From Bacillus sp. BA3 (GTDB lineage: Bacteria; Bacillota; Bacilli; Bacillales; DSM-1321): DNA of 64,000 nt. A program made the position numbers and the translations under genes. Under the pieces are notes generated by a model. That model ran no database searches. It was not told where the DNA came from and worked only from the letters and a program-made list of their open reading frames with translations. Numbering within the stretch: position 1 is the stretch's first letter; each line of letters opens with the position of its first letter. Shown here piece by piece: positions 144 through 63,129 of this stretch. The DNA lies in assembly GCA_002835675.1 (NCBI GenBank), contig PIZR01000013.1, positions 8,438 to 72,437 on the forward strand, read 5' to 3'.

Positions 144-178
144 CCGTTTTTCTTAATAGGGGCAGGTTAGTTCAAGAA
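144..178 (+). repeat. Triple-hairpin repeat, 3' fragment
   Basis: The sequence TAGGGGCAGGTTAGTTCAAG matches the right-hand end of the dispersed triple-hairpin repeat described at 15381-15468. The left hairpin and terminator core are missing or diverged. Confidence 0.6.
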
Positions 179-270
179 ACAAAAAGGGGTTCTACCTAAA
201 TTTTAAAACAAACAAGACTTGATTATACTTAATGTTTTTTTTACTATAATCCTTATTGGATTGAAGAAAT

Positions 271-372
271 TTGCGACACTCTGCCGAATTACTGGCTAGC
301 CGAGACACCGCAGCGCTCGTGGCGAGGAGGCTTGGCAGGCAGTCGGCGGAAAGGGAGCGATTTCTGAAATCA
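271..372. repeat. GC-rich intergenic segment, possible dispersed element
   Basis: About 100 bases of GC-rich sequence stand out against AT-rich surroundings, with blocks such as TCGCTCCCTTTCCGCCGACTG on the minus strand. From memory this resembles GC-rich dispersed elements (CGCTTTCCGC... CCTCCTCG...) common between genes in Bacillaceae. A minus-strand open frame across it has no good start site or family resemblance and looks accidental. Only one copy is visible here. Confidence 0.4.
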
Positions 373-447
373 ACTGGAACGTTTTTTAAATAAAAAACTT
401 CAGTCAATCTCGCTTTTCTTCGAATTTGTCTACAGTCTGAAACCATT

Positions 448-1092
448 CTATAATGAATGGTTTTTATCTTTATCATATTTTGGTGATGTACTGGAGTGTG
501 TTAATATGCGGTCTAATACTTTTTTAGTAAATGGCATAAAGAAATTAAGTATTAGCCCCCCTAAACAAACGGTTAATAAAGTTCCAACGCCAATTGGTCC
601 ATTTGAAATCATTGCCAATATCAAGAATAGGAGGTAAATGAATGTTCTCGAAAGGAATATATTTGTTCTAGTTAATTCTTGTATGATTAATGTTAATCGG
701 TCAACTGGGATCGGTGCAAAATTTGTGTGTAAATATGTTGCAGTTCCTAATCCTATAACAACTAAGCCGATTCCAAAACAAACAACTTTGCTGTACCAAA
801 GTTCAGGTGTTATCAAATTGTGGAATAAAAAAAGCCACATATCAATACCGATACCAGTTATAAATGCTGTTAACAATCCCAATACTTCAGGTCTTTGTCT
901 TTTTAAAAATGAATTACTGCATATCAATATTAAAGCTATTATTATTTCCCAACTTCCCACAGTAAGCCCCACATTTATGGACAGTCCCACCAAAAGTGCA
1001 TCAAAAGGTGAAGTTCCAAGGTCTGATTGTATAGTGAAAGAAATACCAAGGGTTAATATTATAATTCCCAATACATAAAAAACATATTTCAC
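448..1092 (-). CDS. yczE: YczE/YyaS-YitT family integral membrane protein
   Basis: A 214-residue hydrophobic protein with about five membrane segments, matching the length and the N-terminal GTSPFDAL-type motif of the YczE group. The biochemical role of the family is not settled. I chose the GTG at 1092 because a GGAGGGG box lies nine bases before it; the longer frame to 1137 would start inside the operator and place that box in the coding region. It is divergent from a MarR regulator, and both share an operator region, so MarR probably represses it. Confidence 0.75.
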   Translation of the reverse strand: MKYVFYVLGIIILTLGISFTIQSDLGTSPFDALLVGLSINVGLTVGSWEIIIALILICSNSFLKRQRPEVLGLLTAFITGIGIDMWLFLFHNLITPELWYSKVVCFGIGLVVIGLGTATYLHTNFAPIPVDRLTLIIQELTRTNIFLSRTFIYLLFLILAMISNGPIGVGTLLTVCLGGLILNFFMPFTKKVLDRILTHSSTSPKYDKDKNHSL

Positions 1093-1120
1093 TTTACTAG
1101 GCCCCTCCATCATATTTTTT

Positions 1121-1184
1121 TGTTGCAAACGCAACAAAGCTAAGTTAAATTAAATATATGGTATTTTTATTGCATTTGCAACAA
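1121..1184. promoter_or_regulatory. Divergent promoter region with paired MarR-type operators
   Basis: Two related inverted repeats lie between yczE and the MarR gene: TGTTGCAAACGCAACA at 1121-1136 and, on the other strand, TTGTTGCAAATGCAA at 1170-1184. The shared core TTGCAAAyGCAA is a good candidate binding site for the neighbouring MarR dimer. The first copy sits just upstream of the yczE ribosome binding site and the second just before the MarR gene, consistent with repression of yczE plus autorepression. Confidence 0.6.
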
Positions 1185-1207
1185 AAATACACACTAAGGG
1201 GTTAATT

Positions 1208-2141
<934 letters not shown>

Positions 2142-2197
2142 CGAAATAAAGAACGGTAAAGGCAAAGCCCATAAAATAACCTTGAATGTTACTGCAT

Positions 2198-2217
2198 GAA
2201 CGGGTGAGTTAGCTGAA
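2198..2217 (+). repeat. Triple-hairpin repeat, 5' fragment
   Basis: AACGGGTGAGTTAGCTGAA matches the left hairpin of the dispersed repeat. No terminator core or right hairpin follows. The rest of the interval 2142-2355 shows no gene. Confidence 0.5.
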
Positions 2218-2538: not shown

Positions 2539-2606
2539 TGCCTGCTCGAGTACGCTTATCGTGCTTCAAACTTTTTACTTAACTTTATGTAAAGGAGCTT
2601 ATTTAG

Positions 2607-3676: not shown

Positions 3677-3734
3677 GCGATTCTTAAAGAAGAATCGCTT
3701 TTCTTATTGAGCTTACGGGGCAGATTACTTTAAC
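3677..3734 (+). repeat. Triple-hairpin repeat variant with GCGATTCTT terminator core
   Basis: GCGATTCTT/AAGAATCGC is a 9-bp stem followed by TTTTCTTATTGAG and then TTACGGGGCAGATTACTTTAA, a diverged right-hand hairpin. The terminator stem differs entirely from the common GCTGTC core, yet it occupies the same place, as also at 11411 and 41306. Confidence 0.65.
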
Positions 3735-3790
3735 AAAAGTAATGTAATATATAATAAAAAAAGCGTGTAGTAGAGGAGTCAGAAAATAAT

Positions 3791-4135: not shown

Positions 4136-4144
4136 TCCTCATTC

Positions 4145-4226
4145 CACTAACAGGTGAGTTAGATGAATATCGGAGCTGTCTTAAGGCAGCTTTTTTATAT
4201 GCAACTATCGCGGGAGGTTAGTTCAT
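4145..4226 (+). repeat. Triple-hairpin repeat, complete copy
   Basis: Left arm CTAACAGGTGAGTTAG, core GGAGCTGTCTTAAGGCAGCTTTTTT, right end AACTATCGCGGGAGGTTAGTTC. It begins ten bases after the stop codon at 4135 and is the likely terminator of that gene. Confidence 0.8.
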
Positions 4227-4297
4227 GAAGGACAAATGAAAGTTTATATCGAAATTAATTAAGTAAGAGATTAAGTAAATGTAAAAGAGGTAGAACA

Positions 4298-4771: not shown

Positions 4772-4781
4772 ACTGATATTA

Positions 4782-4846
4782 AACAACGGGTGCATTAGCT
4801 GAAAATCGGAGCTGTCTTTAAGGCAGCCTTATCTTTAGGGAACTAA
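4782..4846 (+). repeat. Triple-hairpin repeat, right end lost
   Basis: AACGGGTGCATTAGCTGAAAATCGGAGCTGTCTTTAAGGCAGCC with the 3' sequence decayed after GGGAACTAAG. Acts as a plausible terminator for the GNAT gene. Confidence 0.75.
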
Positions 4847-4921: not shown

Positions 4922-4928
4922 CAAAATA

Positions 4929-9280: not shown

Positions 9281-9318
9281 ACCTTTATAATTTGTTCATA
9301 CTTGGATGGTTCCTTTTT

Positions 9319-9350
9319 CTTATGGAACTAACGGGGCAGTTTAGTTCAAG
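9319..9350 (+). repeat. Triple-hairpin repeat, 3' half
   Basis: TTATGGAACTAACGGGGCAGTTTAGTTCAAG; right hairpin with one changed arm base. Lies 38 bases after the stop of the gene at 8660. Confidence 0.7.
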
Positions 9351-9570
9351 AGTGCTGTTTGATCTTTGTTCAACAATTGGGCCATTTAATGGAACAAGAA
9401 TCGTAAATTGAACTGGATATTTATGTTAACATTAGTGTAGAGTTTGTGAAGGATTGTACTTAAACTAAAGTTGCAGTTTAGTGGAATAAGCAGGTTCTTT
9501 GGTTGGCAAAGAAGTAGTTTGTATGAGTGTAGGTATTCAAGTAACAAGGTAGCCAAGGAGACTGAAATGA

Positions 9571-11264: not shown

Positions 11265-11410
11265 GCTGAAAAATTGTGATTTTATGAATTCTCTCTCTAT
11301 TAATTGAAAAAGTATGTTATTTTAATTTCATTTCATCATCTTATCCCCATTAATATTTTTCAATAGGAGATCAAGGGCGATACTACTATAAGGGGTGTCG
11401 CCATTTCTTA

Positions 11411-11540
11411 TTGAACTAAAGGGCGCGATTCTTTAATAAGAATCGATTTTCTTAATGAACTAACGGGTGCGTTAGTTCATTAACTTGGGTTGCTTCGGCA
11501 GCCTTATTCTTTATGCAACTATCGGGGCAGGTTAATTCAG
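11411..11540 (+). repeat. Triple-hairpin repeats, two units in tandem
   Basis: First unit: GAACTAAAGGGCGCGATTCTT and its partner AAGAATCG with TTTTCTTAATG. Second unit: AACTAACGGGTGCGTTAGTT (a perfect 7-bp left hairpin), core GGTTGCTTCGGCAGCC, right end AACTATCGGGGCAGGTTAATT. The tandem lies between the + gene ending at 11264 and a minus gene and still reads on the + strand. Confidence 0.85.
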
Positions 11541-11570
11541 TATCGTGGCATAAGGCATATATTAAACGAA

Positions 11571-11922: not shown

Positions 11923-12016
11923 CTTACATCACTCCTTAACGAATACCAAGTGTATACATTGAGGTCTGGAACATCAATACTAATCCAGTAACAATCTTAT
12001 TACAGTTTAGTTACTA

Positions 12017-12043
12017 AACTAAAGGGGCAGGTTAGTGCAATAA
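12017..12043 (+). repeat. Triple-hairpin repeat, 3' fragment
   Basis: AACTAAAGGGGCAGGTTAGTG; lies upstream of a minus-strand gene, yet in the same + orientation as all other copies. The interval 11923-12446 otherwise holds a weak GCCA/TGGC terminator-like hairpin near 12305 and no gene. Confidence 0.7.
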
Positions 12044-15346: not shown

Positions 15347-15380
15347 TGATACACATAAGAAAATGTGAAGGTTTCTACTT

Positions 15381-15468
15381 AAACTATAGGGTGCGTTAGC
15401 TGAAGATCTGAGCTGTCTTTAAGGCAGCTTTTTCTTATGGAACTAAAGGGGCAGGTTAGTTGAACAAG
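15381..15468 (+). repeat. Triple-hairpin repeat, reference copy
   Basis: Left hairpin AACTATAGGGTGCGTTAGCTG; terminator core AGCTGTCTTTAAGGCAGCTTTTTC; right hairpin AACTAAAGGGGCAGGTTAGTT, then GAACAAG. A best-fit consensus over all copies is left arms CTAAC/GTTAG with loop GGGTGC, a 6-8 bp terminator stem with TTTTTCTTATGG, and right arms AACTAAC/GTTAGTT with loop GGGGCAG. It follows an existing PBP terminator, so it is not needed to end that gene. Confidence 0.9.
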
Positions 15469-15594
15469 TAAAAGGTTTTTGTGGTGGTTATCTCGAAACT
15501 AAATGAGTAGGAAAATCATTTTAACATCAGGGAGGATGGCTGTTGTACTTAATTTAGGGATCCATATTCTAATTAGAATTGAGGAGTGAATAGA

Positions 15595-16077
15595 ATGACC
15601 AACGTAAAAGATATTATTTCTGACCAGTTCTTAGCGAATGCTAATGACCCTAGTTGGTACAAACCATTTTCAGAATCAGTTGAAAATTTGACGGAAGAAC
15701 AGGCTTTATGGAAGCCAAGCAAAGATAGTAACAGTATAGCTGAAATTGTACAACATCTGATTTATTGGAATCAAACTTGGCAAACCAGGTACGAAAAATC
15801 CAACGTAGACGCTGTATCTTCAATCGGAGATAATAATCGGAGCTTTTTAAGTACTGAATATATGTGCTTTAACGATTTGAAAAAAATCTTATTAGAAGTC
15901 CTTTTAAAGTGGGAAGGGTTATTAACTAATGAAAAAATAGAAAGTGATGTTATAGGTTTTCCTGAAAAAGTTAAGTGGTGGCAAATTCTTGGAAATGCAA
16001 CTACCCATAATGCATATCATATCGGTCAAATTATTTATATAAGGAAACTGCAAAACAGTTGGAAGGCGAATGCATGA
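15595..16077 (+). CDS. DinB family protein
   Basis: 160 residues, four-helix DinB fold. The metal-binding His residues fit VQHLIYWNQTW near residue 51 and HNAYHIGQIIYIRKL near the end. The family includes thiol transferases and many proteins of unknown role. GAGGAG precedes ATG 15595 better than the GTG at 15586. Ends before a repeat-derived terminator. Confidence 0.85.
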   Translation: MTNVKDIISDQFLANANDPSWYKPFSESVENLTEEQALWKPSKDSNSIAEIVQHLIYWNQTWQTRYEKSNVDAVSSIGDNNRSFLSTEYMCFNDLKKILLEVLLKWEGLLTNEKIESDVIGFPEKVKWWQILGNATTHNAYHIGQIIYIRKLQNSWKANA

Positions 16078-16117
16078 GAAGTTGACTTAGCTGCTAATTG
16101 GAACTTTTCGCTAGAAT

Positions 16118-16165
16118 GGATTGCTGCGGCAATCCTTTTTTCTTCATCAACTAAAGGGGCAGCAT
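16118..16165 (+). repeat. Triple-hairpin repeat, left hairpin lost
   Basis: Core GGATTGCTGCGGCAATCC with TTTTTTCTTCATC, then AACTAAAGGGGCAGCATT with a broken right arm. Probable terminator of the DinB gene. Confidence 0.75.
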
Positions 16166-16228
16166 TCCTGTAATGAACGAATCGGTTTATTTATGCAAAG
16201 CCAACTAAGTTTGTGAATAAGTACACTT

Positions 16229-16316
16229 AAACTAACGGGTGCGTTAGCTGAAGTTCGGAACTGTCTTTAAGGCAGTTTTTTCTTTATGCAACTAAAGGGC
16301 AGGTTAGTTCAATAAG
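16229..16316 (+). repeat. Triple-hairpin repeat, complete copy
   Basis: AACTAACGGGTGCGTTAGCTG, core GAACTGTCTTTAAGGCAGTTTTTTC (the outer G-C pairs of the usual stem have become A-T pairs), and AACTAAAGGGCAGGTTAGTTC. Only about 65 bases separate it from the preceding copy. Confidence 0.9.
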
Positions 16317-16362: not shown

Positions 16363-16686
16363 ATGAGCTTGGATCATGAGTTTTATCTTATTTCTAAGAC
16401 AACTGATATAAAGGATTTTTGGATGTACAGAGAAAGAAATAGCAGTGTAATCGATAGTATTGTTATACATGATGATTTGATTCAATATATTATGGACTCA
16501 TTGGAATGGATTCCAAGTAAAAACCCATCATTGCAAGGAACTCCAAGTGGCAGGGGTATTAACTATCATGGAGAAACCCTTTTTGATAATCACTCTTCTG
16601 AAACTTTAATAAGTATTTTTTCGTCATGGAAGAGTCTTATTAAAAATGCACCTGATAAATTTGAACTCACTGGAAAATTCGTTTAG
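16363..16686 (+). CDS. Hypothetical protein
   Basis: 107 residues, soluble; AAGGAGG gives firm support for the ATG. A SLQGTPSGRGINYHGETLF segment in the middle is distinctive but I do not recognise it. Isolated short cytoplasmic proteins like this are often immunity or antitoxin proteins; that is speculation. Confidence 0.6.
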   Translation: MSLDHEFYLISKTTDIKDFWMYRERNSSVIDSIVIHDDLIQYIMDSLEWIPSKNPSLQGTPSGRGINYHGETLFDNHSSETLISIFSSWKSLIKNAPDKFELTGKFV

Positions 16687-16844
16687 GGCGAAGCTGACAA
16701 TCAGGAGGGGGACTATAAAAAATCAGTCTTCAACCGGGATGAAGTAATTACAAAATTAGAAAAATGATTTTAATGTCAGAAGCTTTAGCTAAAGGTGAAT
16801 TTTATTTGTACCATTGTGGAATATGATGGTATAAAAAAACTATT

Positions 16845-16930
16845 CAACTAATAGGTGCTTTACTGTAATGCAGAGGTTGCTACCGCAGCCTTTTTCTAAT
16901 GGAACTAACGGGGCATGATAGTTGAACAAG
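16845..16930 (+). repeat. Triple-hairpin repeat, complete copy with GGTTGC core
   Basis: AACTAATAGGTGCTTTACTG, core GGTTGCTACCGCAGCC with TTTTTC, and AACTAACGGGGCATGATAGTT. The interval 16687-16844 holds nothing else obvious. Confidence 0.85.
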
Positions 16931-17000: not shown

Positions 17001-17759
17001 ATGGGAAAAATAAAAATAGCTTTATTACACCTATTGCCTATCGCTGGTGATGTGGAGTATAACCAAAAACTAATTGAACAAGCCATTCATATAGCATCAA
17101 ATAATAATGCCGAATGGATTATAACACCCGAACTATGTGTTAGCGGACTTCAATTCAATCATAAGATTGGGACTGGATGGATTAACCGGCAACCTGATGC
17201 TTGGATGGGTAATTTGAGCCGTAAACTAAAGAGTTTGAAAAGCACTGTATTTTTGGGTTGCCCTGAAAAAGGCAGTAACGGAGAATTGTATAATTCTGTG
17301 TTTGTCATAGATAAACAAGGTCATTTATTAGGCAAACAGAGAAAAATAAGTGTTATTGATGATTGGTCAGCATCAGGGGATGTATTAGAGCCAATAAAAA
17401 CAGACAAAGTTGAGGTTGGTATTATGATTTGTGCAGACGCCTATCCCAAAGATATTGCTTACAGCTTAGTTGAAAAAGGAGCAGAAATATTAATTGCACC
17501 GTCTTCCTGGGGTCCCGGATTACACGGTCCAGAGGGAGAATGGGAACAAAGGTCATTAGAAACAGGACTGCCCGTATTTGTCTGTAATCGTACTGGAGAA
17601 GACGAAACTGTCCGTTTTTGGGATGCAGAAAGCATGATCATAAAAAATGGAGTACGCCTTTTGACACATAAATCAAAACAATCAGCCATCCTTACTTTTG
17701 AATGGGATTTACAAAGCATGGAATTAATATCCCCTCATTTCGATATCGATTACATATAA
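17001..17759 (+). CDS. Carbon-nitrogen hydrolase (nitrilase superfamily amidase)
   Basis: 252 residues with the Glu-Lys-Cys triad: TPELCVSG (E44), GKQRKISV (K115 likely) and MICADAYPK (C144). Hydrolyses C-N bonds of an amide or nitrile; the substrate cannot be told. The strand-helix order and length fit stand-alone family members. GGGAG precedes the ATG. Flanked on both sides by repeats, i.e. its own transcription unit. Confidence 0.87.
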   Translation: MGKIKIALLHLLPIAGDVEYNQKLIEQAIHIASNNNAEWIITPELCVSGLQFNHKIGTGWINRQPDAWMGNLSRKLKSLKSTVFLGCPEKGSNGELYNSVFVIDKQGHLLGKQRKISVIDDWSASGDVLEPIKTDKVEVGIMICADAYPKDIAYSLVEKGAEILIAPSSWGPGLHGPEGEWEQRSLETGLPVFVCNRTGEDETVRFWDAESMIIKNGVRLLTHKSKQSAILTFEWDLQSMELISPHFDIDYI

Positions 17760-17790
17760 TGAGTACATACTAATATACTACACTCTTGTT

Positions 17791-17872
17791 GAATTAAAGG
17801 GTGCTTAGCTAAAGATCGAAGCTGCCTTTAAGGCAGCTTTTCTTTATGTAATTATAGGGGCAATTTTTATTG
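17791..17872 (+). repeat. Triple-hairpin repeat, right arm decayed
   Basis: AATTAAAGGGTGCTTAGCTAA, core GAAGCTGCCTTTAAGGCAGC with TTTTC, then AATTATAGGGGCAATTTTT. Here the core stem is GCTGCC/GGCAGC, a full Watson-Crick version of the common GCTGTC/GGCAGC. Confidence 0.8.
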
Positions 17873-20345: not shown

Positions 20346-20498
20346 TTTTATATATGTTCAGAAAACCTTGGATTATATCAGGTTATGGACAAAAGCATAC
20401 ATACAGATCAAGGTTGTTCCAATACTTATCTCTTAGTATATAAAAGGTGTGTATAAGGATGGATTACAAGATTGGTGCAAAAAAGATTCTAATTGAGC

Positions 20499-20567
20499 TT
20501 ACTAAGGGAGGTTGCTGAGGCAGCCTTTTTCTTTTTGGCTCTTTCTAGGCAGGATAGTTGAATAAAG
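20499..20567 (+). repeat. Triple-hairpin repeat with GGTTGC core
   Basis: CTTACTAAGGGAGGTTGCTGAGGCAGCC is split here as left remnant CTTACTAAGGG, core GGTTGCTGAGGCAGCC, then a decayed right end CTAGGCAGGATAGTTGAATAAAG. Confidence 0.75.
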
Positions 20568-21202: not shown

Positions 21203-21240
21203 AATTAGGGGGTTGCTGAGGCAGCCTTTTTCATATGCAT
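21203..21240 (+). repeat. Triple-hairpin repeat, core only
   Basis: TTAGGGGGTTGCTGAGGCAGCC with TTTTTCATATG; both flanking hairpins are lost. Terminator for the MOSC gene. Confidence 0.7.
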
Positions 21241-21301
21241 TTAAAAGAAATTCGTTTGAAATATAGGTAAATTATGGTAATCTAAAATTAGAGGTGATTA
21301 C

Positions 21302-21877
21302 TTGAGGAGATTCTTTGTTTTTATTAGCCTATTTGCTTTATTCTTTTTATCAGCTTGTTCATCAAATCCTTCTCTGGAACTAGTGGATGCGAAAGTTGAT
21401 ATTGTTAAAGATAAAAGTTTAGTTGGTGCAATTGGGATAACTGAAGGGGAAAGAAAGGGAGATGAGCTGATCCCGACAGCTTTATTTTATGAATTCACCA
21501 TTAAAAATACAGGTAATAAAACAGCAGATATTGAAGAAGTTGATAAAGGAATTGAACTTAAGATTGAGCCCAAAGACAAATTAAAAGCCGTGTCGGAAGA
21601 CGTAATAGGCTTCAATATTTATGATCCTGAAGATTATAACGGGAGTGGTGTAGGGTTCGGTCATTCATTTTTACCGGTTCTTAATCCTGATCAAAAGGGT
21701 GAGTATACTCTTAACTACGATTTAGGTGTAAGTGAAGAAAATTCGCAAGTTCCACTGCTGGTACCTTCAAATGAAAAATTAGCTAAACTTAAAGAGTATG
21801 CATTTGATGCTTTTTTAGTTGTGACAATTGATAATCAAGAAATAGCAAGATTTGACCTGAGTAAACTTAAAAACTAA
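21302..21877 (+). CDS. Lipoprotein of unknown function
   Basis: 191 residues from a TTG with AGAGGTGA upstream. Lipobox FLSACSSN gives a lipidated Cys at about residue 19. The mature part is a beta-rich domain with FTIKNTGNKTADIEEVD, like immunoglobulin-like secreted domains. Surface-anchored; role unknown. Its stop codon lies inside the left hairpin of the repeat that follows. Confidence 0.7.
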   Translation: MRRFFVFISLFALFFLSACSSNPSLELVDAKVDIVKDKSLVGAIGITEGERKGDELIPTALFYEFTIKNTGNKTADIEEVDKGIELKIEPKDKLKAVSEDVIGFNIYDPEDYNGSGVGFGHSFLPVLNPDQKGEYTLNYDLGVSEENSQVPLLVPSNEKLAKLKEYAFDAFLVVTIDNQEIARFDLSKLKN

Positions 21878-22001
21878 CGGGTGCTTTTTGAAGGTGGATT
21901 TAAAAGGTAAATTAAACTTGGTTCTGATAAAATTTGTTTGAAGGAAGGTTGCTGAGGCAGCCTTTTTCTTATGGCACTAAAGGAGCGGGATAGCGGAAGT
22001 A
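21872..22001 (+). repeat. Triple-hairpin repeat overlapping a stop codon
   Basis: The left end AACTAACGGGTGC supplies the TAA (21875-21877) of the lipoprotein gene. After about 60 unrelated bases come GGTTGCTGAGGCAGCC with TTTTTC and a decayed right end CACTAAAGGAGCGGGATAGC. The element may be a fusion of two partial copies. Confidence 0.75.
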
Positions 22002-22876: not shown

Positions 22877-23040
22877 AGATGTTACTTAACCTTCTTCAAC
22901 TAAAGGGTACTTACTTCATATCACGAGCTGATCAGCATCTCCTTTTCTTATTAGTGACATAAGTACCTTTCAGAAATAATGAAAATATAAAAAAACTTGG
23001 CGTGATCAACAATATTTAAATGATTAAGGGAGGAAGAATT

Positions 23041-23610
23041 ATGTCAATTAACGTAAGACCAAGAAGAATGATTTTAGATTTAGCAGTTACTTTAGATGGT
23101 TTTATAGAAGGAAAAAATGGGGAAGTTGATTGGTGCATCATGGACCCTGAGATGGGGTTTATTAATTTCTTAAATCAAATTGATACTATTTTATATGGAA
23201 GAAAAAGCTACGATTTATGGGGACAATTCACTCCAGGAATTGAAGATGCCGATACTGAAAAAGAACTTTGGGAAATGGTTCATAGTAAAGAAAAATACGT
23301 GTTTTCCAGAACGCAAAAAGGGACTGATAATAAAGCGATCTATATAAATGATAATATTGTTGAAGAAGTAAATAAATTAAAGAATAAACCTGGTAAAGAC
23401 ATCTGGCTATATGGCGGAGCAAGTCTTATTACAACATTTATCAATTTAGGGCTTGTTGATGAATTTAGATTATCTGTTCATCCTGTTATTTTGGGAGAAG
23501 GAAAACCTTTGTTTATTGATATAAAGCAGAGATTGAATCTAAAATTGGTTAATACAAGAATGTTCTCCTCTGGCGTTGTGCAACTAATATATCATTTGAA
23601 TGAAAATTAA
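23041..23610 (+). CDS. Dihydrofolate reductase-like (RibD C-terminal domain) protein
   Basis: 189 residues. LDLAVTLDGFIEGKNGEVDW opens the fold; ILYGRKSYDLW, DIWLYGGASLITTFINLGLVDE and HPVILGEGKPLF are the family motifs for the NADPH-binding reductase domain. Many Bacillus genomes hold several such paralogues (YyaP, YwjB) of unknown substrate. ATG 23041 follows GGGAGG. Confidence 0.88.
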   Translation: MSINVRPRRMILDLAVTLDGFIEGKNGEVDWCIMDPEMGFINFLNQIDTILYGRKSYDLWGQFTPGIEDADTEKELWEMVHSKEKYVFSRTQKGTDNKAIYINDNIVEEVNKLKNKPGKDIWLYGGASLITTFINLGLVDEFRLSVHPVILGEGKPLFIDIKQRLNLKLVNTRMFSSGVVQLIYHLNEN

Positions 23611-23939
23611 TTATAGTGTTCATTCGTAAATATGCGATAGTTATTGCTGTCATTTCCCTTCAACAATCGGGCGCTTTAATGGTGCAATGAAATAGCTTAA
23701 TTTCTTAATGCTCAGAAATTAGGCTTTTTAATATTGTGAGCATGATTTAATTAAATAACCTATATAAATAAGAAGAAACCGAAATTATAGATAGTTCATG
23801 AACTTTAATTAAGCAAGGTTGATGAAGATGACGCAACAAAAGATGATTGAATTTAAGAAACTATAGTCATTTTTAATCATTTTAATAGTCAGTTTATTCT
23901 GATATTATGAAAGGGATAAAGATTGGAGGAGGAAATAAC

Positions 23940-24347
23940 ATAAAAAGCTTATTTTTAATCTTAAGTACCTTTGTGTTAGTTCTGGTAAGTGGAATCGTAT
24001 TTGGTACTTCTGCTGCTCAAGCAAGTGTTCCTCAGTATTCTTTTCAAACAGAAGATGGAAAATGGGATGGTGAAATTGGAAATCCTAACAAAGGTAGTGA
24101 CTTAGAGGTAGAACTGGTTTCCCCAATCTATTTAAAGACCTCTTCTGGAAGTAAGTTATTGACTAATTATAGTAACATATGGTCTCGTCTCTGCAATGCT
24201 AGTACTGGAAAGTGCACAGGCTATCATAGTTTAGCAGGTGGAAAGACATTATTCACAGATATGAAAATAGGTAAATTTTATGTTGATGTGAAAGATGGAT
24301 ACTCTTCTGGTAAAGTATCTGGAAAACTACAGATTGTTTTCAAATAA
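23940..24347 (+). CDS. Small secreted protein, probable non-canonical start
   Basis: A signal peptide (KSLFLILSTFVLVLVSG... cleaved near AQA-SVP) precedes about 100 mature residues with two Cys (SRLCNASTGKCTGYH). A strong GGAGGAGG lies just before an ATA at 23940; the only ATG in frame, 23907, has no site and adds an odd GIKIGGG leader. Start by ATA, or a mutated ATG, is suggested. Family unknown. Confidence 0.6.
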   Translation: MKSLFLILSTFVLVLVSGIVFGTSAAQASVPQYSFQTEDGKWDGEIGNPNKGSDLEVELVSPIYLKTSSGSKLLTNYSNIWSRLCNASTGKCTGYHSLAGGKTLFTDMKIGKFYVDVKDGYSSGKVSGKLQIVFK

Positions 24348-24359
24348 CTTGTATTACTT

Positions 24360-24390
24360 GCTACCCACACTTGATGGGGAGCTTTTTTTA
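24360..24390 (+). terminator. Intrinsic terminator
   Basis: GCT.CCCA/TGGG.AGC around CACTTGA-type loop, followed by seven T; ends the secreted protein gene. Confidence 0.75.
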
Positions 24391-24582
24391 TATGAAAAGT
24401 TTCTGAAATAAATTAATTCTAAGTAATTTTGTATAATTTTTTACGAAGATTGAGCTTTACCACTGCCTTTTACGGAAAAGAAGTGAAGTTTACTGACATG
24501 ACTAGTACGTTACAAACGCTACAAAGGGTGTCGAGCTAAATGGTGTTTGTGTAGACATGAACTAAAGTTTGATATTTTGTTA

Positions 24583-24614
24583 ATGAACTTATGGGGCAGG
24601 TTAGTTGAACAAGG
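24583..24614 (+). repeat. Triple-hairpin repeat, 3' fragment
   Basis: ATGAACTTATGGGGCAGGTTAGTTGAACAAG; right hairpin with one damaged arm. Confidence 0.7.
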
Positions 24615-24907: not shown

Positions 24908-25022
24908 AGGTTGCTGAGGTAACCTTTTTCATATGTTATTAACGGGTGCGTTAGCTGAAAATCGGAGCGTCTTTAAGGCAGCTCTTTTCTTATGGAACTA
25001 AAGGAGCAGGTTAGTTGAATAA
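24908..25022 (+). repeat. Triple-hairpin repeat preceded by a second core
   Basis: A lone core GGTTGCTGAGGTAACC with TTTTTC is followed by a full copy: TTAACGGGTGCGTTAGCTG, core GGAGCGTCTTTAAGGCAGC with TTTTC, and AACTAAAGGAGCAGGTTAGTT. Confidence 0.85.
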
Positions 25023-25198: not shown

Positions 25199-25360
25199 TG
25201 GTCTTGGAGGGGATTTTATGAAACGAAATTGGGCATATGTTATCATTGCCGGTATTATTGCTTGGTATTTGCATTGGCGTGGACTTTCTAATGATTAATG
25301 ATCTTGGAGGGAATTTTATGAATCGAAATTGGGCATATGTTATTATTGCCGGTATTATTG
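25173..25360 (+). repeat. Direct duplication, 100-bp offset, at the start of ykkC
   Basis: 25173-25260 repeats at 25273-25360 with only a few differences (both begin ATTGGCGTGGACTTTCTAAT and include a ribosome binding site, ATG and the first codons of ykkC). The upstream copy encodes only the beginning of the gene before the sequence returns to the repeat. Confidence 0.85.
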
Positions 25361-25659
25361 AGGTAATGTGGGCAATGGGGTTGAAGTATTCAAATAATTT
25401 GATTACTTGGGCCGGTACATTTTTTCTTATATATGTATCCTTTGTTGTATTGATGAAAGCTACAAAAAAACTACCCGTTGCTACTGTCTATGCTGTCTTT
25501 ACAGGAATAGGAACAGCGGGAACAGTCTTGGTGGAAATGGTGGTTTTTGGAGAACCTTTCAGTTGGACAAAAATATTGTTTATTCTCCTGCTTCTGTCTG
25601 GTGTAGTAGGATTAAAACTTGTCACAACTGAACCAAGCAAGAAAGAAGGTGCAGTATAA
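25318..25659 (+). CDS. ykkC: Small multidrug resistance protein, YkkC subunit
   Basis: 113 residues, four membrane helices, with the SMR glutamate in AGIIEVMWAMGLKYS and YAVFTGIGTAGTVLVE. Matches YkkC of the paired YkkCD efflux pump. ATG 25318 with CTTGGAGG is the true start; a longer frame begins in the duplicated DNA. The stop codon is immediately followed by the ykkD ATG. YkkCD-type pairs export cationic compounds or guanidinium; which applies here is unknown. Confidence 0.88.
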   Translation: MNRNWAYVIIAGIIEVMWAMGLKYSNNLITWAGTFFLIYVSFVVLMKATKKLPVATVYAVFTGIGTAGTVLVEMVVFGEPFSWTKILFILLLLSGVVGLKLVTTEPSKKEGAV

Positions 25660-25974
25660 ATGGCTTGGTTATATCTTATCTTGGCTGGAACTTTTGAAGT
25701 AGTTGGGGTTACGGGTATGAATAAAGTTGTTAAAGATAAAAACCTACAGTCGTATATAGTATTGTTTATGGGATTTATAATTAGTTTTGGTTTTCTAAGT
25801 CTAGCTATGAAAACTCTCCCTATGGGAATTTCCTATGCGGTATGGACAGGGATTGGAACTGTGGGAGGAGTAATTATTGGAATGTTGTTTTATGGAGAAT
25901 CAAAAGATTGGAAACGAATTTTATTTATAGGGGCAATTTTAGTAGCGGTAGTGGGGTTGAAATTGACATCATAA
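25660..25974 (+). CDS. ykkD: Small multidrug resistance protein, YkkD subunit
   Basis: 104 residues, four membrane helices; AGTFEVVGVTGMNK carries the key Glu and SYAVWTGIGTVGG the helix-three motif. Starts directly after the ykkC stop, so the heterodimer subunits are co-translated. Ends 15 bases before a triple-hairpin repeat. Confidence 0.88.
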   Translation: MAWLYLILAGTFEVVGVTGMNKVVKDKNLQSYIVLFMGFIISFGFLSLAMKTLPMGISYAVWTGIGTVGGVIIGMLFYGESKDWKRILFIGAILVAVVGLKLTS

Positions 25975-25989
25975 ATAATATACGTTGTT

Positions 25990-26076
25990 GAACTAACGGG
26001 TGCTTTAACTTATGATCGGAGCTGTCTTTAAGACAGCTTTTTCCTTATGCAATTAACGGGGCAGGATAGTTGAAGA
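25990..26076 (+). repeat. Triple-hairpin repeat, complete copy
   Basis: AACTAACGGGTGCTTTAACTT, core GGAGCTGTCTTTAAGACAGC with TTTTTC (here GCTGTC pairs with GACAGC, a perfect stem), and AATTAACGGGGCAGGATAGTT. Confidence 0.9.
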
Positions 26077-26089
26077 AGAACTGATAAAT

Positions 26090-27137: not shown

Positions 27138-27599
27138 AGCTGATTTCTCCCTTCTAATCAGGTCACAAGTATCATTCAGTATATGTTTATTTTTCAGGGG
27201 CAGGATTATGTAGCTAAACATCCAAGAAAAGACTTCATCGAGTATAAAAAAAAACTACGACGAGGATAGAGGAGACTACGTTTGAGTGGCAGTACGGGCA
27301 AGCCGAACAGGAATTATTATGCACGTACTTTGTTTGTAATGGGTGATGAGAAAGTCAGAAAGTACAACCAAAAAAACTTGAAAGAAAATAAAAAAGCCAT
27401 AGCGGTAGGCTACGGCTGCCTGTTCCGTCCTCAAACAGGCTATTTTGCAACCTTATGCACAAAAGGTTATTGATGATTATTATTATTAAATATCTTGCGA
27501 TCCTTTAAGATGGAGATCGCTTTTTCCAACAACAGGATTGTGAACAATTAAATTAATTAATTGTCTTTTTGCTCTGTTATTACTGTCATAAATGCACAC
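27138..27599. other. Gap with hairpins, no convincing gene
   Basis: A 63-codon frame at 27282-27473 follows AGAGGAG but overlaps two strong hairpins (GCC.TAGC/GCTA.GGC near 27395 and GCCTGTT/AACAGGC near 27420), which argues against coding. GCGATC/GATCGC with TTTTT near 27494 is another terminator-like stem. Confidence 0.5.
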
Positions 27600-27654
27600 G
27601 GTGCTGCGGCATCTCTTTTTCTTATTCAACAAACGAAGCAGTAGAGTTGAATAA
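27600..27654 (+). repeat. Triple-hairpin repeat, degenerate copy
   Basis: GGTGCTGCGGCATC with TCTTTTTCTTATTC, then AACAAACGAAGCAGTAGAGTTGAATAAG, which keeps the outer ends but has many changes. It lies downstream of a minus gene but reads on the + strand. Confidence 0.55.
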
Positions 27655-27706
27655 GAAATAACTTTACAAGGCTCTGTTAAATAACTGTGTTGATTTGCAG
27701 CTAAAT

Positions 27707-33442: not shown

Positions 33443-33469
33443 ATTTTGGGGTTAATATGTGTCTTAATG

Positions 33470-33556
33470 AACTAACGGGTGCGTTAGCTGAAGAGTGAAG
33501 ATGTCTTAAGGCAGCTTTTTTTTTATGGAACTAACGGGCAGGTTAGATACATAAAG
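33470..33556 (+). repeat. Triple-hairpin repeat, complete copy
   Basis: AACTAACGGGTGCGTTAGCTG, core AGATGTCTTAAGGCAGC with nine T, and AACTAACGGGCAGGTTAG. The core stem is weakened (GATGTC against GGCAGC). Confidence 0.88.
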
Positions 33557-33663
33557 AATATCTAAATATTAGCTCTAATAGCATCGTTGGGAATGATGGT
33601 ATCCATAAAATACAATTTTTTTGGACAGGATAAAAAGAAAAAGGAATGAAAGAGGTCCGGTCT

Positions 33664-35316: not shown

Positions 35317-35398
35317 AAAACGGGTGCGTTAACTTAAGATCAGAGCTGTCTTTAAGACAGCTTTTTCTTGTGGAACTAACGGGGCAGGATTGAATAAC
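35317..35398 (+). repeat. Triple-hairpin repeat, complete copy
   Basis: AACGGGTGCGTTAACTTAAG, core AGAGCTGTCTTTAAGACAGC with TTTTTC, and AACTAACGGGGCAGGATTG with a short deletion in the right arm. It starts 12 bases after the GerA-type stop codon. Confidence 0.85.
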
Positions 35399-39396: not shown

Positions 39397-39457
39397 AAAT
39401 CAATGGTTGATTTTGTTTTTTCTTATTGAACTAAAGGGGCAGGATAGTTGTATAAAG
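39397..39457 (+). repeat. Triple-hairpin repeat, 3' two-thirds with new core
   Basis: Core AAATCAATGGTTGATTT with TTGTTTTTTC, then GAACTAAAGGGGCAGGATAGTTG. It lies upstream of the minus-strand sigma operon, so it is not downstream of any + gene, yet it keeps the + orientation. Confidence 0.75.
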
Positions 39458-41305: not shown

Positions 41306-41377
41306 ATCGGCGCGATTCTTTTATAAGGTTCTCTTTTCTTAATGAACTAACGGGGCAGGATAGTTGAAGTGGGTAAA
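41306..41377 (+). repeat. Triple-hairpin repeat with GCGATTCTT core
   Basis: AATCGGCGCGATTCTTTTATA, then TCTTTTCTTAATG and AACTAACGGGGCAGGATAGTT. The terminator partner strand is decayed. The left hairpin sequence differs from the common CTAACGGG type. Confidence 0.75.
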
Positions 41378-41904: not shown

Positions 41905-41917
41905 ATTTTACTTTTCA

Positions 41918-41998
41918 ACAAACGGGTGCGATAGCTTAAGATCGGAGCTGTCTTTAAGGGAGCTTTTTTTTATGCAACTAACGGGGCAGGTTAGCGTT
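41918..41998 (+). repeat. Triple-hairpin repeat, complete copy
   Basis: AACGGGTGCGATAGCTTAAG, core GGAGCTGTCTTTAAGGGAGC with eight T, and AACTAACGGGGCAGGTTAGCG. Last copy before the gap in the repeat family that runs to 51.4 kb, apart from a possible left fragment near 42173. Confidence 0.88.
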
Positions 41999-42319
41999 AC
42001 AAGGATATGCTAAGATAATAGTGGTTCGGTTCCACAGAAAATCTAGGAAAAACAAGAAATCTGACTTGGTTATTTATTTGTGCAAAAAATACTAGGGGAA
42101 AGCTAATGCTTGTAAAGAATATGGCTTCAATCGATTAATTTCTCTAATCGATAAAAACAATCCTAACTTCTAAACGGGTAGCTGAAAAGGTCGGAATGCA
42201 ATTTGAAAAGGAAATATTTAAATGGGGCAAATATGTTGAAATATATAGCATAAAGAGTTAAATAAATACTGTGTTTTTGGTGGGCTCCCATGAAAATTTA
42301 AGTAACTAGGAGTGGTTTG

Positions 42320-50896: not shown

Positions 50897-51482
50897 TAAA
50901 AATCCAAATCTCTCATTTATATCACTGAGAGATTGGGAATTATTCAACAAATCTACTATTAGCTGATATTGAAGAAAAGCACAGTTATTTGCATGCCTAT
51001 TTCATATTATCAGGATTATAGGAAGTAATACAACAACCCTGATAACGCTAAAAAGATTGCTTCAATAAGTAGACTCCACATAGTGTAGATACAAATTTAA
51101 AGGTATTTATAGTTGGATAATATTCTTATACGAGGCGCAATTTTATGTGCCATTTTTGTGATTTTTCATAACCTTCCAGAGGTCTTGATATATTAACAAT
51201 TTGATCTAATGTTTTTTTCATAATTAACCAAAAAATATTGATATTCTCTTCAATGTGACTTTATTTCAAAACCACATGTACTACGGCAATTATAAAATTA
51301 ACATTTCAAGATGTTGAAATGGTCCGTGTTTGTCAAAATCCTGATCAATATATAGTAAAACAGGTAACTACGAGCCATTTATATTGATGCTCACTAAACC
51401 TGGTTATTTTTGTTTTGCTTCCTCTTTTTAAACAAAAACTGTGACATATGAGAAAGGTAAATTAAAACCTTTACCTTATAGA
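50897..51482. other. Gap with no recognisable gene
   Basis: AT-rich, with many stops in all frames. Apart from the hairpin after the two-copy motif I see nothing that looks like a gene or RNA. Confidence 0.5.
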
Positions 51483-51566
51483 GCTAACAGGTGCTTTTCA
51501 TTAAGAGAGTTGCTTTGGCAGCTCTTTTTCTTATGGAACTATCGGTGCAGGATAGTTCATTAAGGA
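51483..51566 (+). repeat. Triple-hairpin repeat, copy with covarying right arms
   Basis: GCTAACAGGTGCTTTTCATT, core GAGTTGCTTTGGCAGCTC with TTTTTC, and AACTATCGGTGCAGGATAGTT. In the right hairpin the arms are AACTATC/GATAGTT instead of AACTAAC/GTTAGTT: both strands changed together. Confidence 0.9.
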
Positions 51567-52633: not shown

Positions 52634-52719
52634 GGCTAACGGGTGCTTTACTTCAATAAGGGAGTTGCTTTGGCAGCTCTTTTTCTTATGGAGCTGATGG
52701 GGCAAGTTAGTTGAACAAG
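52634..52719 (+). repeat. Triple-hairpin repeat, complete copy
   Basis: GCTAACGGGTGCTTTACTTC, core GAGTTGCTTTGGCAGCTC with TTTTTC, and GAGCTGATGGGGCAAGTTAGTT. The core is identical to that of the copy at 51483, over 1.1 kb away. Confidence 0.88.
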
Positions 52720-53047: not shown

Positions 53048-53082
53048 TGGAGCGTAAGTCCATGGCTTTAAAATCCTTCTAC

Positions 53083-53145
53083 AACTAACAGGTGTGTTAG
53101 CTGAAAATGAAAGCTATCTTTAATTGAGGTTTTTCTTTTTACTAT
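53083..53145 (+). repeat. Triple-hairpin repeat, left hairpin and damaged core
   Basis: AACTAACAGGTGTGTTAGCTG has a perfect left hairpin; the core AAGCTATCTTTAATTGAGG no longer pairs well. No right hairpin is found. The interval 53146-53446 shows no gene. Confidence 0.7.
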
Positions 53146-53683: not shown

Positions 53684-53822
53684 TTAACTAACGAGTGTGT
53701 TAGTTCATTTAGAAGGCCACCAAATTGGTGGTCTTTTGAATGTAAGATTCTTATACAAATCATACATTCAAATTAGAGAAGAAAGTACCATTATGCAATT
53801 AACGGGGCAGGATAGTTTAAGT
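53684..53822 (+). repeat. Triple-hairpin repeat with internal insertion
   Basis: Left AACTAACGAGTGTGTTAGTT (perfect 7-bp arms), core GGCCACCAAATTGGTGGTC with TTTT, then about 55 extra bases containing TGAATGTA/TACATTCA, then AATTAACGGGGCAGGATAGTT. The insertion separates core from right hairpin. Confidence 0.8.
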
Positions 53823-60113: not shown

Positions 60114-60132
60114 AGGGCTATGGGGAGGACCC

Positions 60133-61344
60133 TTAAATTACGGCACGCTCAATTAGAGGTGCGTTGTTGGCAAGACGGGCATAGGAAAGTGCCGAGAGAT
60201 CAAGGGTGCGAAACTCACCATAGATGAGTAGTTCCGCGACACCGCGACCGCATGCGGGCGCTTGCTGCGAGCCATGGCCAGAGAAACCATTGCAGAAGAA
60301 AAGGTTAGCGATCTCGGTATGAGGGCCGATGATTGCATTATGGTCAAAAGTGTTAAACTCGTAGTGCCCTACCCATGAGTCTGTCACCTTGACTGAATTA
60401 AACTGTGGAATGCGGTTCTGAATCACCGGCAAAATCTTTTCTTCCCATACTGCTTCCGGGTAGCCGAAGTCGTCAAAAGCTACAGCAGGATCGCCTTCAA
60501 TAGGTGGACAACCTACAAGGTAATCGTGCTCGCCGAAGGAACGCATATGAACCCCGGTAGGGTCAATCGTCAGAGGTAGATCTTGTTCTAAATGATTTTC
60601 GGCAGAGAATATATAGGTGTAACGACGGCGAGGCTCGATTGGAAGATCTACGCCTGCCATTCTGGAGACTTGGGCTGCCCGGGTGCCAGCCGCATTAACA
60701 ACTTTTCCGACAGTAATGACTTCCCCTGTTTTTAAAGTGACGCTATTTATAGATTTTCCAGAGCTGTCCATCGTGACGACTTCGTTCTCGATGAAGTGCA
60801 CGCCGTTTTCCCAGGCTTTTTGTCGTAGCCATTCCACCATGAGTAAAGCATCGAAGGCTCCCTCGTCGACAGTGTTCAGACTTCCGGCGACGATGTCTTC
60901 GAGGTTGTAGAATGGGTAAGCGGTTACAATTTCCTGCTGTGTCAGAATCTTGGTACCAGCACCACAGGAGGCCTGTAATTGCTGGTCTTCACGGAGTATG
61001 TTGGCGAACTCCTCATTGTCGGCGAGATAGAGGTACCCGAAATTTCGTATAGGAATGTTCGGAACCTTGGGGTCATCACCTAGATTCTCACGAAAGTTTT
61101 TGACGAATTCGGCAGCGTACTGCGCAATCTCTACGTTGATTTCAGTAGCGAATTGTTGACGCATGCAGTTATTGCTGGCTATAGTTGCAGATTGCTTGAA
61201 TGCGGAATCTTTTTCGACAACTAGTACTCTACCGTCGAAGTCAGGGTTGTTGCTGAGGAACCAAGCCACAGCTGCTCCGCTCGTAGCGCCGCCGATGATG
61301 ACGACATCATAAAAACTATGTTCTGGGTGAATAGAAAATTTCAT
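60133..61344 (-). CDS. FAD-dependent oxidoreductase (DAO family)
   Basis: 403 residues. VVIIGGATSGAAVAWFLS is the FAD dinucleotide loop, RRRYTYIFSAE and VGHYEFNTFDHNAIIGPH with FFCNGFSGHGSQQAPACG the substrate and second FAD motifs. Oxidises an amine or amino acid (sarcosine/D-amino acid type). The gene is near 49 percent GC by eye, well above its neighbours, with codon use to match, so it was probably acquired. ATG 61344 follows AAGGAG. Confidence 0.88.
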   Translation of the reverse strand: MKFSIHPEHSFYDVVIIGGATSGAAVAWFLSNNPDFDGRVLVVEKDSAFKQSATIASNNCMRQQFATEINVEIAQYAAEFVKNFRENLGDDPKVPNIPIRNFGYLYLADNEEFANILREDQQLQASCGAGTKILTQQEIVTAYPFYNLEDIVAGSLNTVDEGAFDALLMVEWLRQKAWENGVHFIENEVVTMDSSGKSINSVTLKTGEVITVGKVVNAAGTRAAQVSRMAGVDLPIEPRRRYTYIFSAENHLEQDLPLTIDPTGVHMRSFGEHDYLVGCPPIEGDPAVAFDDFGYPEAVWEEKILPVIQNRIPQFNSVKVTDSWVGHYEFNTFDHNAIIGPHTEIANLFFCNGFSGHGSQQAPACGRGVAELLIYGEFRTLDLSALSYARLANNAPLIERAVI

Positions 61345-62057
61345 GTAAAACACTCCTTTTTTTGAATTATCTGAATTATATCGCGGTTATGAGTATTAGT
61401 AAAATGAATGTTAATAATGCTTGACATTAATTTTATTCATGTACAGAATTTTTGTGTTATGACTATTCAGGGTTATGAGGTTTCCAATAAAGTAGTTCAA
61501 CCATAAAGAAATAACAAGTATTGGAAATGAATTAAAAGGAAAGAAAAATACTATTTCCGATCGTTTTTAAGGTTTTATCTCCGTGAAATTGCCGTTACTG
61601 TTCCCATGACAGCAATAAGTATTATAATTACTCTTGTGATAGAGGATAACAGTTTAGAAGTGTTCACTAAGGAATTAGTAAATAAAATTTCTTATATTGT
61701 CATAAGATTTTCATTTTTAGCTATTGAGATCTCTTTTGCTTTATACACGAAACTTCCCCAACTCATTGCATTCCCTATTCTTTGTTATTGAGTTTTCCTT
61801 AAAAAAGCCTATACGGAGTAGCGTCAGGAAAAATGCGGATTTACAACGTTAAGAAAATCCAAATAAAAAGGCCTAATTACTCGCTTACAACACCGAGAAA
61901 TTAGGCTCTGATTTACTTTATATAAATTCCCGGTGTTTGGACAATCTTTTCCTTTATTCCATCCTTCTTGTAAAAAGTCGATTTAATTATGTACAAAATG
62001 AGCTTTATTTGGATGGTAATAATTTTTTTATTAATTACATAGACTGTTTTTGTTAAT
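61345..62057. other. Gap with second copy of the two-copy motif
   Basis: Holds GTAGCGTCAGGAAAAATGCGG and ATTTACAACGTTAAG (61818-61852), the partner of the motif at 50847, followed by AATCCAAAT and the hairpin GCCTAATT.CTCG/CGAG.AATTAGGC at 61871-61906. A hydrophobic 61-codon frame at 61606 has no start site and I do not call it. Confidence 0.6.
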
Positions 62058-62924
62058 CTACAACATACTCACCCAAGATTTAGTTACTTCAGCAAATTTC
62101 CTTGCTGCAGGAGAAAGATTATAACGTGTAGCAAGACCAATGGAACGATAGCTATCTACTTCTAAAGGAATAGCACGTAGCTGTGGTAAAAGTGACTGCA
62201 ACACCATTTCTGGCAGAATACTGATTCCTAAAAGATTAGCTACCATAGACATGATTGCATTTTCCCCCATTAGTTCAAAACGAATTTTGGGCTGAACTTT
62301 ATTTTCTTTAAAAATTCTTTTAACATCATGATAGCCACCAAATGCAGGCATAATAAACCATTGTTTTTCTAGTTCTTTAAAAGAAATAGTCTCATTATTG
62401 TATAGTTCACTTTTATCAGAAACAATACAAAGTAGTCTATCATCCTTTAAAGGAATTACATCAAATTTTTGTGAGTACCTAACATTAATAAAACCACAAT
62501 CTATCACTCCTCCTAATAGCCACTGTTCAATTTCAAAATAATTTCCTTCCATTAACTCAATTCGAATATCAGGATAATCTGTTTGCATTAATTTGATAAT
62601 TTCAGGTAACCAGATCGTAGAAACGCTAGTAAACACCCCAACCTTAATAGTTCCTTTTGTAAGTCCAGCAATACTAGCTGCTTCTTGTTGTACTTGTTCA
62701 TAATAGTGTAAAACCTTTCGTATCGTTAGTAACAATATTTCTCCTTCACTCGTTAAAGAGATACCTAATCGATTTCTATTTACTAAAGGAAAGCCAAATT
62801 CCGTTTCAAGATTAGTGATAGCGTGGCTCACTGCAGATTGAGTTAATCCTAAAACTTCAGCGGCTTGTGTGAAACTTTTTACTTCAGCAACTTTATTTAG
62901 GATTTCAAATTTAATCAAGCTCAT
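62058..62924 (-). CDS. LysR family regulator
   Basis: 288 residues. KSFTQAAEVLGLTQSAVSHA is the DNA-binding helix region; effector domain begins near IKVGVFTSVSTIWLPEIIK. AAGGAGG precedes the ATG. Nearest target candidates are the oxidase and permease downstream on the same strand. Confidence 0.88.
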   Translation of the reverse strand: MSLIKFEILNKVAEVKSFTQAAEVLGLTQSAVSHAITNLETEFGFPLVNRNRLGISLTSEGEILLLTIRKVLHYYEQVQQEAASIAGLTKGTIKVGVFTSVSTIWLPEIIKLMQTDYPDIRIELMEGNYFEIEQWLLGGVIDCGFINVRYSQKFDVIPLKDDRLLCIVSDKSELYNNETISFKELEKQWFIMPAFGGYHDVKRIFKENKVQPKIRFELMGENAIMSMVANLLGISILPEMVLQSLLPQLRAIPLEVDSYRSIGLATRYNLSPAARKFAEVTKSWVSML

Positions 62925-63067
62925 AATTATTCCTCCTTAATATGAATTTATCTCATGTTTCTTATAATAAAGATTTAATTTACTAATATTAACCTTATTT
63001 ATATAATTTGAATAGACATGAGGAAGATTGGAGTAGAATACGGACAAGATTGTGAAAGAATGTACTT

Positions 63068-63129
63068 AAACTAACGGGTGCGTTCGTATTATAAGGTTAG
63101 ACAGTTTATTTTACTGGTTGACCTTTTTT
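63068..63129 (+). repeat. Triple-hairpin repeat, left part with a new core
   Basis: AACTAACGGGTGCGTTCG, then core AGGTTAG.CAGT/ACTG.TGACCT with seven T. The right hairpin is missing and the IS110 region starts immediately after, so the element may have inserted into or beside the repeat. Confidence 0.7.

Follow-up and report, generated by a model that had tools for sequence, protein, structure and literature searches.

A replication-oriented, terminator-bearing repeat of Peribacillus as the probable junction of mobile gene cassettes

Results

Copies and anatomy of the repeat in the window

The window analysed here is a 64,000-nucleotide stretch of contig PIZR01000013.1 (positions 8,438 to 72,437) from the draft genome of Bacillus sp. 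BA3 (5.59 Mb in 43 contigs; G000). It carries many copies of a short repeat, which we interpret as the probable junction between mobile gene cassettes. In a full copy, a left site (L, AACTAAC-GGGTGC-GTTAG) is followed by an intrinsic terminator and then by a right site (R, AACTAAC-GGGGCAG-GTTAGTT). In nhmmer searches (E<=0.01), a profile refined iteratively on the window detected 31 full or partial copies, and the final profile, which was built from 421 copies taken from the window and 80 fetched stretches, detected 28. Half-site models detected 18 L sites and 25 R sites. Every match was on the + strand and the reversed window, used as a control, gave no match to any of the three models at the same cut-off, which bears out the estimate of about 30 copies in the first-pass annotation.

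Composites of the order L-terminator-R lie at 4142..4229, 11455..11541, 15379..15467, 16227..16316, 16843..16930, 24939..25022, 25988..26077, 33468..33553, 35319..35392, 41914..42002, 51481..51563 and 52636..52718, and the complete copies that had been placed at 4145, 15381, 16229, 25990, 33470, 51483 and 52634 are all composites. A further composite has a degenerate right end (17790..17863), and at 21872..21998 an L site is followed by a longer spacer, a terminator and an R site. The remaining copies are partial. An L site and terminator stand at 53082..53138 and, with a degenerate right part, at 4781..4846; a terminator and R site at 3685..3736, 20496..20565 and 27599..27655, and in degenerate form at 16085..16165; and a terminator fragment at 21206..21244. 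Single R sites were found at 147..178 (a partial copy), 9312..9351, 12006..12043, 24575..24612, 39417..39455, 41331..41368 and 53790..53821, and a single L site at 63064..63087. The copies are clustered and unevenly spaced.

Genes lie between these copies. Examples of cassette genes are a DinB family gene (15586..16077, + strand) and a carbon-nitrogen hydrolase gene (17001..17759, + strand). An open reading frame (ORF) without a Pfam match (16363..16686, + strand) is flanked by two composites, and two adjoining small multidrug resistance genes (SMR; Multi_Drug_Res; 25237..25974, + strand) have composites on either side. A GerA spore germination gene at 33646-35304 also has a composite on each side; its 81% relative in the same-species genome G061 is at a different place (4.275 Mb) and on the opposite strand.

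The consensus of the 421 copies reads ATTGAACTAAC-GGGTGC-GTTAGCTGAAGATCG for the L part, GAGCTGTCTTTAAGGCAGCTTTTTT for the terminator and CTTATGGAACTAAC-GGGGCAG-GTTAGTTCAATAAG for the R part. Each site thus has inverted arms of approximately TTNAACTAAC and GTTAGTTNAA around a short asymmetric spacer, which is GGGTGC in L, GGGCGCG in an L variant and GGGGCAG in R. The copies have diverged, and the exact string AACTAACGGGGCAGGTTAGTT is absent from the window. When arms were scanned for with the spacer left free, the L and R spacers predominated. The variant L site occurs in the window at 11405..11440 (+ strand) and on a dfrK plasmid (L177:3917-3940), and is the kind of site used by the dfrK insertion described below; in 1.96 Mb it favoured the repeat strand by 28 to 3. 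Rare AATCGGGCCAT sites favoured the same strand by 6 to 0 in the same 1.96 Mb.

Base-pair covariation among 845 copies is confined to the stem of the T-run terminator (columns 39-45, mutual information (MI) 0.171). For local arm pairing in both palindromes, the Watson-Crick frequency equals the product of the column frequencies, and end-to-end pairing of columns 1-10 with 78-87 and of columns 17-29 with 58-70 shows no covariation (MI 0.001-0.044), with Watson-Crick pairs again as frequent as expected. A linkage map of the repeat columns contains one block (columns 17-57), with the arms unlinked and linkage low within the arms as well. Several copies fold end to end as RNA. Of five composites folded as DNA, two gave clearly better folds than shuffled sequences (z -2.88 and -3.84) and three did not. 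A hairpin RNA or structured DNA was rejected, as there is no arm covariation and the alignment fold retains only the terminator. Of the hairpin-terminator-hairpin plan proposed in the first-pass annotation, the L-terminator-R order and the terminator stem therefore stand, whereas the outer palindromes are inverted repeats and not conserved hairpins. Since the arms vary independently, without pairing covariation, they look like paired protein-binding sites. None of 4227 Rfam families scored above its gathering score in the window, in agreement with the earlier impression that no existing family describes the repeat.

The repeats follow the direction of replication

The draft genome has at least 150 repeat matches at E<=0.01, many of them on small contigs and at contig ends, and nearly all are on one strand per contig. 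Contig and plasmid matches place the genome in the Peribacillus group, and the same repeat was found on Peribacillus frigoritolerans, P. simplex and P. muralis records. At E<=1e-4 the repeat matched 42 of 61 genomes, namely 34 of the 35 from the genus and, with 1 to 11 copies each, 8 of the 26 from elsewhere.

In the complete genome G027, all 148 listed copies are on the + strand up to position 2,801,525 and on the - strand from 2,813,693, giving a single strand switch. A dif-like site (27 of 28 bases) lies at about 2,796,205, with the switch 5 to 18 kb beyond it and one + copy 5 kb past it, and the GC skew flips near the switch. The G027 record begins with what we take by eye to be a dnaA-like gene. 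In G004 and G023 the matches listed form one + arc and one - arc each; skew was sampled for G023. On the P. muralis plasmid pG25-68 the copies are on one strand, in a part with largely positive skew, and a single weak opposite match, seen in one of two scans, overlaps a copy.

Array DNA was sampled as the 80 fetched stretches plus the window, from ten Peribacillus genomes (1.47 Mb), picked as repeat-rich. In this sample 672 of 674 copies are on the majority strand of their contig, with a median spacing of 0.9 kb. Genes follow the repeats only 1143 to 357, and the polarity therefore belongs to the sites.

The intervals between repeats hold mostly single, diverse genes

Of 794 intervals between repeats, 373 hold a single ORF of at least 90 aa, 149 contain none and 272 contain two or more. 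Clustering of the 372 one-gene cassettes used gave 226 sequence clusters, of which 145 have a single member. Among 106 cassettes scanned for families, glyoxalase (6), GNAT (4) and DinB (4) were the most frequent, no family exceeded 6, and the genes are of accessory types. Defence models gave six matches in total. Arrays of polymorphic-toxin immunity genes were considered and rejected on gene content, as SMI1_KNR4 accounts for only 2 of the 106.

Genes between repeats are exchanged between genomes

G061 has a 180-kb array region with 99 copies in a single orientation. Segments of this array, 81-98% identical, map to ten contigs of G000 in mixed order with some collinear blocks, a scatter that may come partly from the draft assembly. 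Copies do not all stand at the same positions in relatives, in line with the mobility and empty sites that the first-pass annotation had anticipated. At window positions 4781..4846, G061 holds 2.9 kb of extra DNA and two further repeats. The neighbours 23008-23687 and 23821-24422 are in swapped order in G061, although no repeat can be recognised between the two in the window.

The ends of DNA shared between genomes are enriched in repeats. We compared 809 segments of at least 300 bp that are shared between different loci. The left end lies in a repeat in both partners in 186 cases, the right end in 169 and both ends in 63, whereas repeats and their margins cover 6.3% of positions. The upstream gene keeps columns 1-11 of the repeat (at column 3, identity 0.92 against 0.24 on the other side and a background of 0.31), and the downstream gene keeps columns 80-88 (at column 85, 0.91 against 0.34 and 0.36). 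The two outer arms thus travel with the genes next to them, the left arm with the upstream and the right arm with the downstream one, and the exchanged unit is the gene between repeats (R-gene-L), not the hairpin-terminator-hairpin block. Breaks could be located to a single interval in 77 cases, and 50 of these are at the two spacers. A repeat marks the empty junction of 11 of the 55 indels between genomes, where 4.3 are expected at random; 7 of 2000 simulations reached this number.

R-gene-L units occur on plasmids outside the genus

Half-sites were also found on plasmids outside the genus, ordered as R-gene-L. The plasmids were chosen because they matched and are not a random sample; when reversed they gave nothing under E 0.079. 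The units are catA-9 on Staphylococcus aureus pKH13, dfrG on S. aureus pWBG707 and Enterococcus faecalis pK72-1-A, a gene with an NTF2-like product and its neighbour on Listeria innocua pLIS35, and an ASCH gene on Sporosarcina pSP10-6k. S. aureus pKKS627 and S. epidermidis pSWS47 carry R-dfrK-R-L-R-MazG-L, in which MazG denotes a MazG-like gene. At qacH on Listeria pLIS26 the sites are only weak (E 0.13 and 0.63), and the half-site models found no L or R site on the qacG plasmid L186 (best E 0.56). Two multi-resistance plasmids, one scanned whole and the other over 50 of its 74 kb, had sites only at dfrK-MazG and dfrG, not at other resistance genes. A complete R-ORF-L unit with a 171-aa ORF of unknown function is present on Klebsiella grimontii pNY3A (L178:5001-5658), as a possible case of spread beyond Bacillota or a matter of assembly.

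One insertion could be resolved against its empty site. Two tet(L)-mob plasmids without dfrK carry one copy of TTCCATTAAAGGGCGCGATTGCTGAA, and the dfrK plasmid has a site of this type on both sides of the insert. The base before GGGCGCGATTG is that of the target at the left junction and that of the insert at the right junction, which places the exchange within GGGCGCGATTG, an 11-bp core. The insertion duplicates only the site itself. The empty sites of cat and dfrG are not clean: dfrG lies within a larger element whose ends show a 9-bp overlap, and differences among the cat plasmids are more extensive. DfrG relatives with 88-89% protein identity are present in 4 of 36 Peribacillus genomes; those of G027 and G008 lie between repeats, and the flanks fetched for G012 and G004 do not place theirs between repeats. 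A cat homologue (57%) was found in two array stretches. To the right of the dfrK insertion, a 160-bp stretch (L177:3929-4088) is identical in sampled enterobacterial plasmid records, which all start at the same junction; tallies suggest several hundred such records.

A chromosomal tyrosine recombinase is a candidate enzyme

The source genome has 13 matches to tyrosine recombinase families, some of them fragments. Our candidate is a chromosomal 279-aa Xer/IntI-like protein (G000:C9:34957-35793). Its closest PDB entries are a XerC-like and a XerA enzyme, and its score against the best NCBIfam model does not reach the cut-off. At >=89% identity it is present in 21 of 36 genomes of the genus (interrupted in G025). 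The 20 counted genomes with this form have a median of at least 66 repeats. Among the other 15, the median is 13.5 in the ten with 45-66% homologues and 8 in the five without a homologue.

Short tyrosine recombinases (173-211 aa) were set aside, as the close form of the one examined in all genomes is absent from G034, which has at least 71 repeat matches. One of them has some match in all 36 genomes of the genus, in G002 and G024 only to longer integrases. Its close form is associated with repeat number (p 1e-4), and the 279-aa type fits better.

Relatives of the 279-aa protein were seen on P. simplex pSHB26 (L207:4374-7425) and in G027 (L206:7883-8734), where nearby ORFs look by eye as though they were 23S rRNA read in antisense. 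A second tyrosine recombinase gene on pSHB26 has parts of repeats on both sides, as a cassette would.

Discussion

We propose that the repeats are probably the junctions of mobile R-gene-L cassettes moved by site-specific recombination. The evidence for the site-specific step consists of a single resolved insertion on a plasmid together with the statistics of shared ends, breaks and indels. Each repeat would join two neighbouring cassettes. Like spacers would recombine with like, and this pairing would excise or insert a circular R-gene-L unit in one orientation only, while the intrinsic terminator between L and R would stop the transcription of one cassette before the next. Catalysis would be by a tyrosine recombinase; that the conserved 279-aa Xer/IntI-like protein is the putative enzyme driving exchange is our guess. 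Polarity may be kept since active sites in the wrong relative orientation would cause large chromosomal deletions or inversions; alternatively, exchange might use the lagging-strand template.

Several observations weigh against this proposal. Of the 809 shared segments, 517 have no repeat at either end. Of the 77 located breaks, 21 are just past the terminator and 6 between L and the terminator; the 205 pairs also included 55 that were inconsistent, 56 that could be placed only coarsely and 17 that showed no difference; and when breaks were placed earlier by likelihood, 41% of those on the downstream side fell in the middle. No repeat is present at any end of 33 of the 55 indels, and ordinary indels therefore occur too. 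The interval for the dfrK exchange widens to about 20 bp should the one A/C difference have arisen later by mutation. Some copies break the polarity: 2 of the 674 in array DNA, two listed G031 copies at places where the local skew is near zero, and 7 of 157 copies in G061, six of them within 8 kb. No recombinase was common to the fetched arrays when eight recombinases of the source genome were used as queries, and the gene of the 279-aa candidate has no L or R site next to it. The correlation between that recombinase and repeat number is confounded by genome kinship, and its repeat counts are lower bounds (about >=66). Genomes with a 45-66% homologue are not richer in repeats than those without one (p 0.81); G003 has such a homologue yet no repeats, and G025 is repeat-rich despite its interrupted copy.

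The six oppositely oriented repeats of G061 lie in one short stretch (3.158-3.167 Mb), perhaps as the result of an inversion between sites.

The explanation that competes best, though we regard it as unlikely, is that the repeats are dispersed palindrome-bearing terminators, and that ordinary or homeologous recombination (RecA, natural transformation) between them, as short direct repeats, moves the cassettes with no dedicated enzyme. Breaks at several repeat positions, including just past the T-run, would be expected of such exchange among repeats that are alike and closely spaced, as would the lack of an array-linked recombinase. It leaves unexplained why scattered copies follow replication, why inverted arms that do not pair are conserved, why R-gene-L units stand on plasmids outside arrays and why the dfrK junctions fall within a short core.

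It is improbable that R-gene-L is a single-strand transposon with palindromic ends (IS200/IS605-, RAYT- or IS91-like). Here the lagging-strand template would set the polarity, and the palindromes near both ends of the unit would find a role. The same ends, however, flank very many different genes (226 clusters from 372 single-gene intervals) and the arms lack hairpin covariation. A Y1 transposase, which the first-pass annotation had suggested looking for, was absent: PF01797 had no match in the draft genome of the source strain, against matches in 5 of 14 control genomes, and IS91-type transposases were not searched for. A miniature inverted-repeat transposable element (MITE) was likewise rejected, given the varying content between R and L and an insertion that duplicates only the site. 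The membership in REP/REPIN, RAYT-associated or IS200/IS605-derived (PATE) families that had been suggested is thus not borne out. With these families and with bcr1 the repeat shares the form of short intergenic palindromes in high copy number; it differs in that no Y1 transposase accompanies it, its palindromes have no covarying stems and the gene between copies is exchanged. The likeness to bcr1-type repeats (PMC2267715) is one of general form.

True integron attC sites used by IntI, with paired composite ends and the terminator hairpin as variable terminal structure, are very improbable: several copies fold this way as RNA, the gene content is cassette-like and the inner arms CTAAC/GTTAG resemble attC R boxes, but the end-to-end pairs do not covary, searches with eight recombinases of the source genome showed no integrase beside the arrays and separate L and R sites flank genes on plasmids.

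By the features tested, the repeats work like an integron or a dif module and yet belong to neither. Like integrons and clusters of attC sites lacking integron-integrases (CALIN), they form long arrays of one orientation, mostly of single genes with a recombination site after each, with diverse accessory genes (GNAT, DinB, glyoxalase, SMR) and array stretches without an integrase. Unlike attC sites, the Peribacillus sites consist of a terminator flanked by two short cores with inverted arms, and they lack covariation of the attC type. They form several arrays per genome, on both replichores and oriented by replication, with no adjacent integrase and none of the eight recombinases used as queries in common. 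IntegronFinder 2.0 reports one complete integron and a few CALIN in Firmicutes (PMC9024848).

In the dif modules (pdif) of Acinetobacter plasmids, short spacer-bearing sites likewise flank genes, including resistance genes. Neighbouring sites in dif modules are in inverse orientation, whereas the Peribacillus sites are directly repeated, in chromosomal arrays of tens of cassettes. L fits an 11-6-11 layout, but its arms match the host dif of G027 at only 3 and 5 of 11 positions, either way round, and the R spacer is 7. Excerpts of the dif module literature describe these modules as unique to Acinetobacter and as using host Xer recombinases.

Resistance genes also move singly between Gram-positive plasmids by the mobilisation of units flanked by a double-strand and a single-strand origin (DSO-gene-SSO), as described for qacC on rolling-circle plasmids (PMC5037232). 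That mechanism uses plasmid replication origins, and the qacG plasmid L186 has no L/R sites. Titles and abstract openings on Bacillus cassette systems, dif modules, Firmicutes CALIN and these resistance genes contained no account of the element; papers that contain the motif strings include some with primers for a chloramphenicol resistance gene.

We see about even chances for the wider proposal, that Bacillota have a cassette-capture system of their own, with sites unrelated to those of integrons and run by a chromosomal Xer/IntI-like recombinase, that it comprises well over a hundred replication-oriented sites in a Peribacillus genome, and that it is the source of the cat, dfrG and dfrK genes (perhaps also qacH) found on staphylococcal, enterococcal and Listeria plasmids.

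Integrons are the textbook cassette system. They are rare in Firmicutes (PMC9024848). The arrays described here are an integron-like cassette collection in the soil Bacillales genus Peribacillus, where we found no prior description of one. The strict replication polarity of more than 100 sites on one chromosome is unusual and bears on how genomes tolerate recombination sites. The R-gene-L form gives a searchable mark by which further units can be found, and if common soil Bacillales hold a second cassette pool of different construction, this would help to account for the origin of some one-gene resistance determinants on Gram-positive plasmids.

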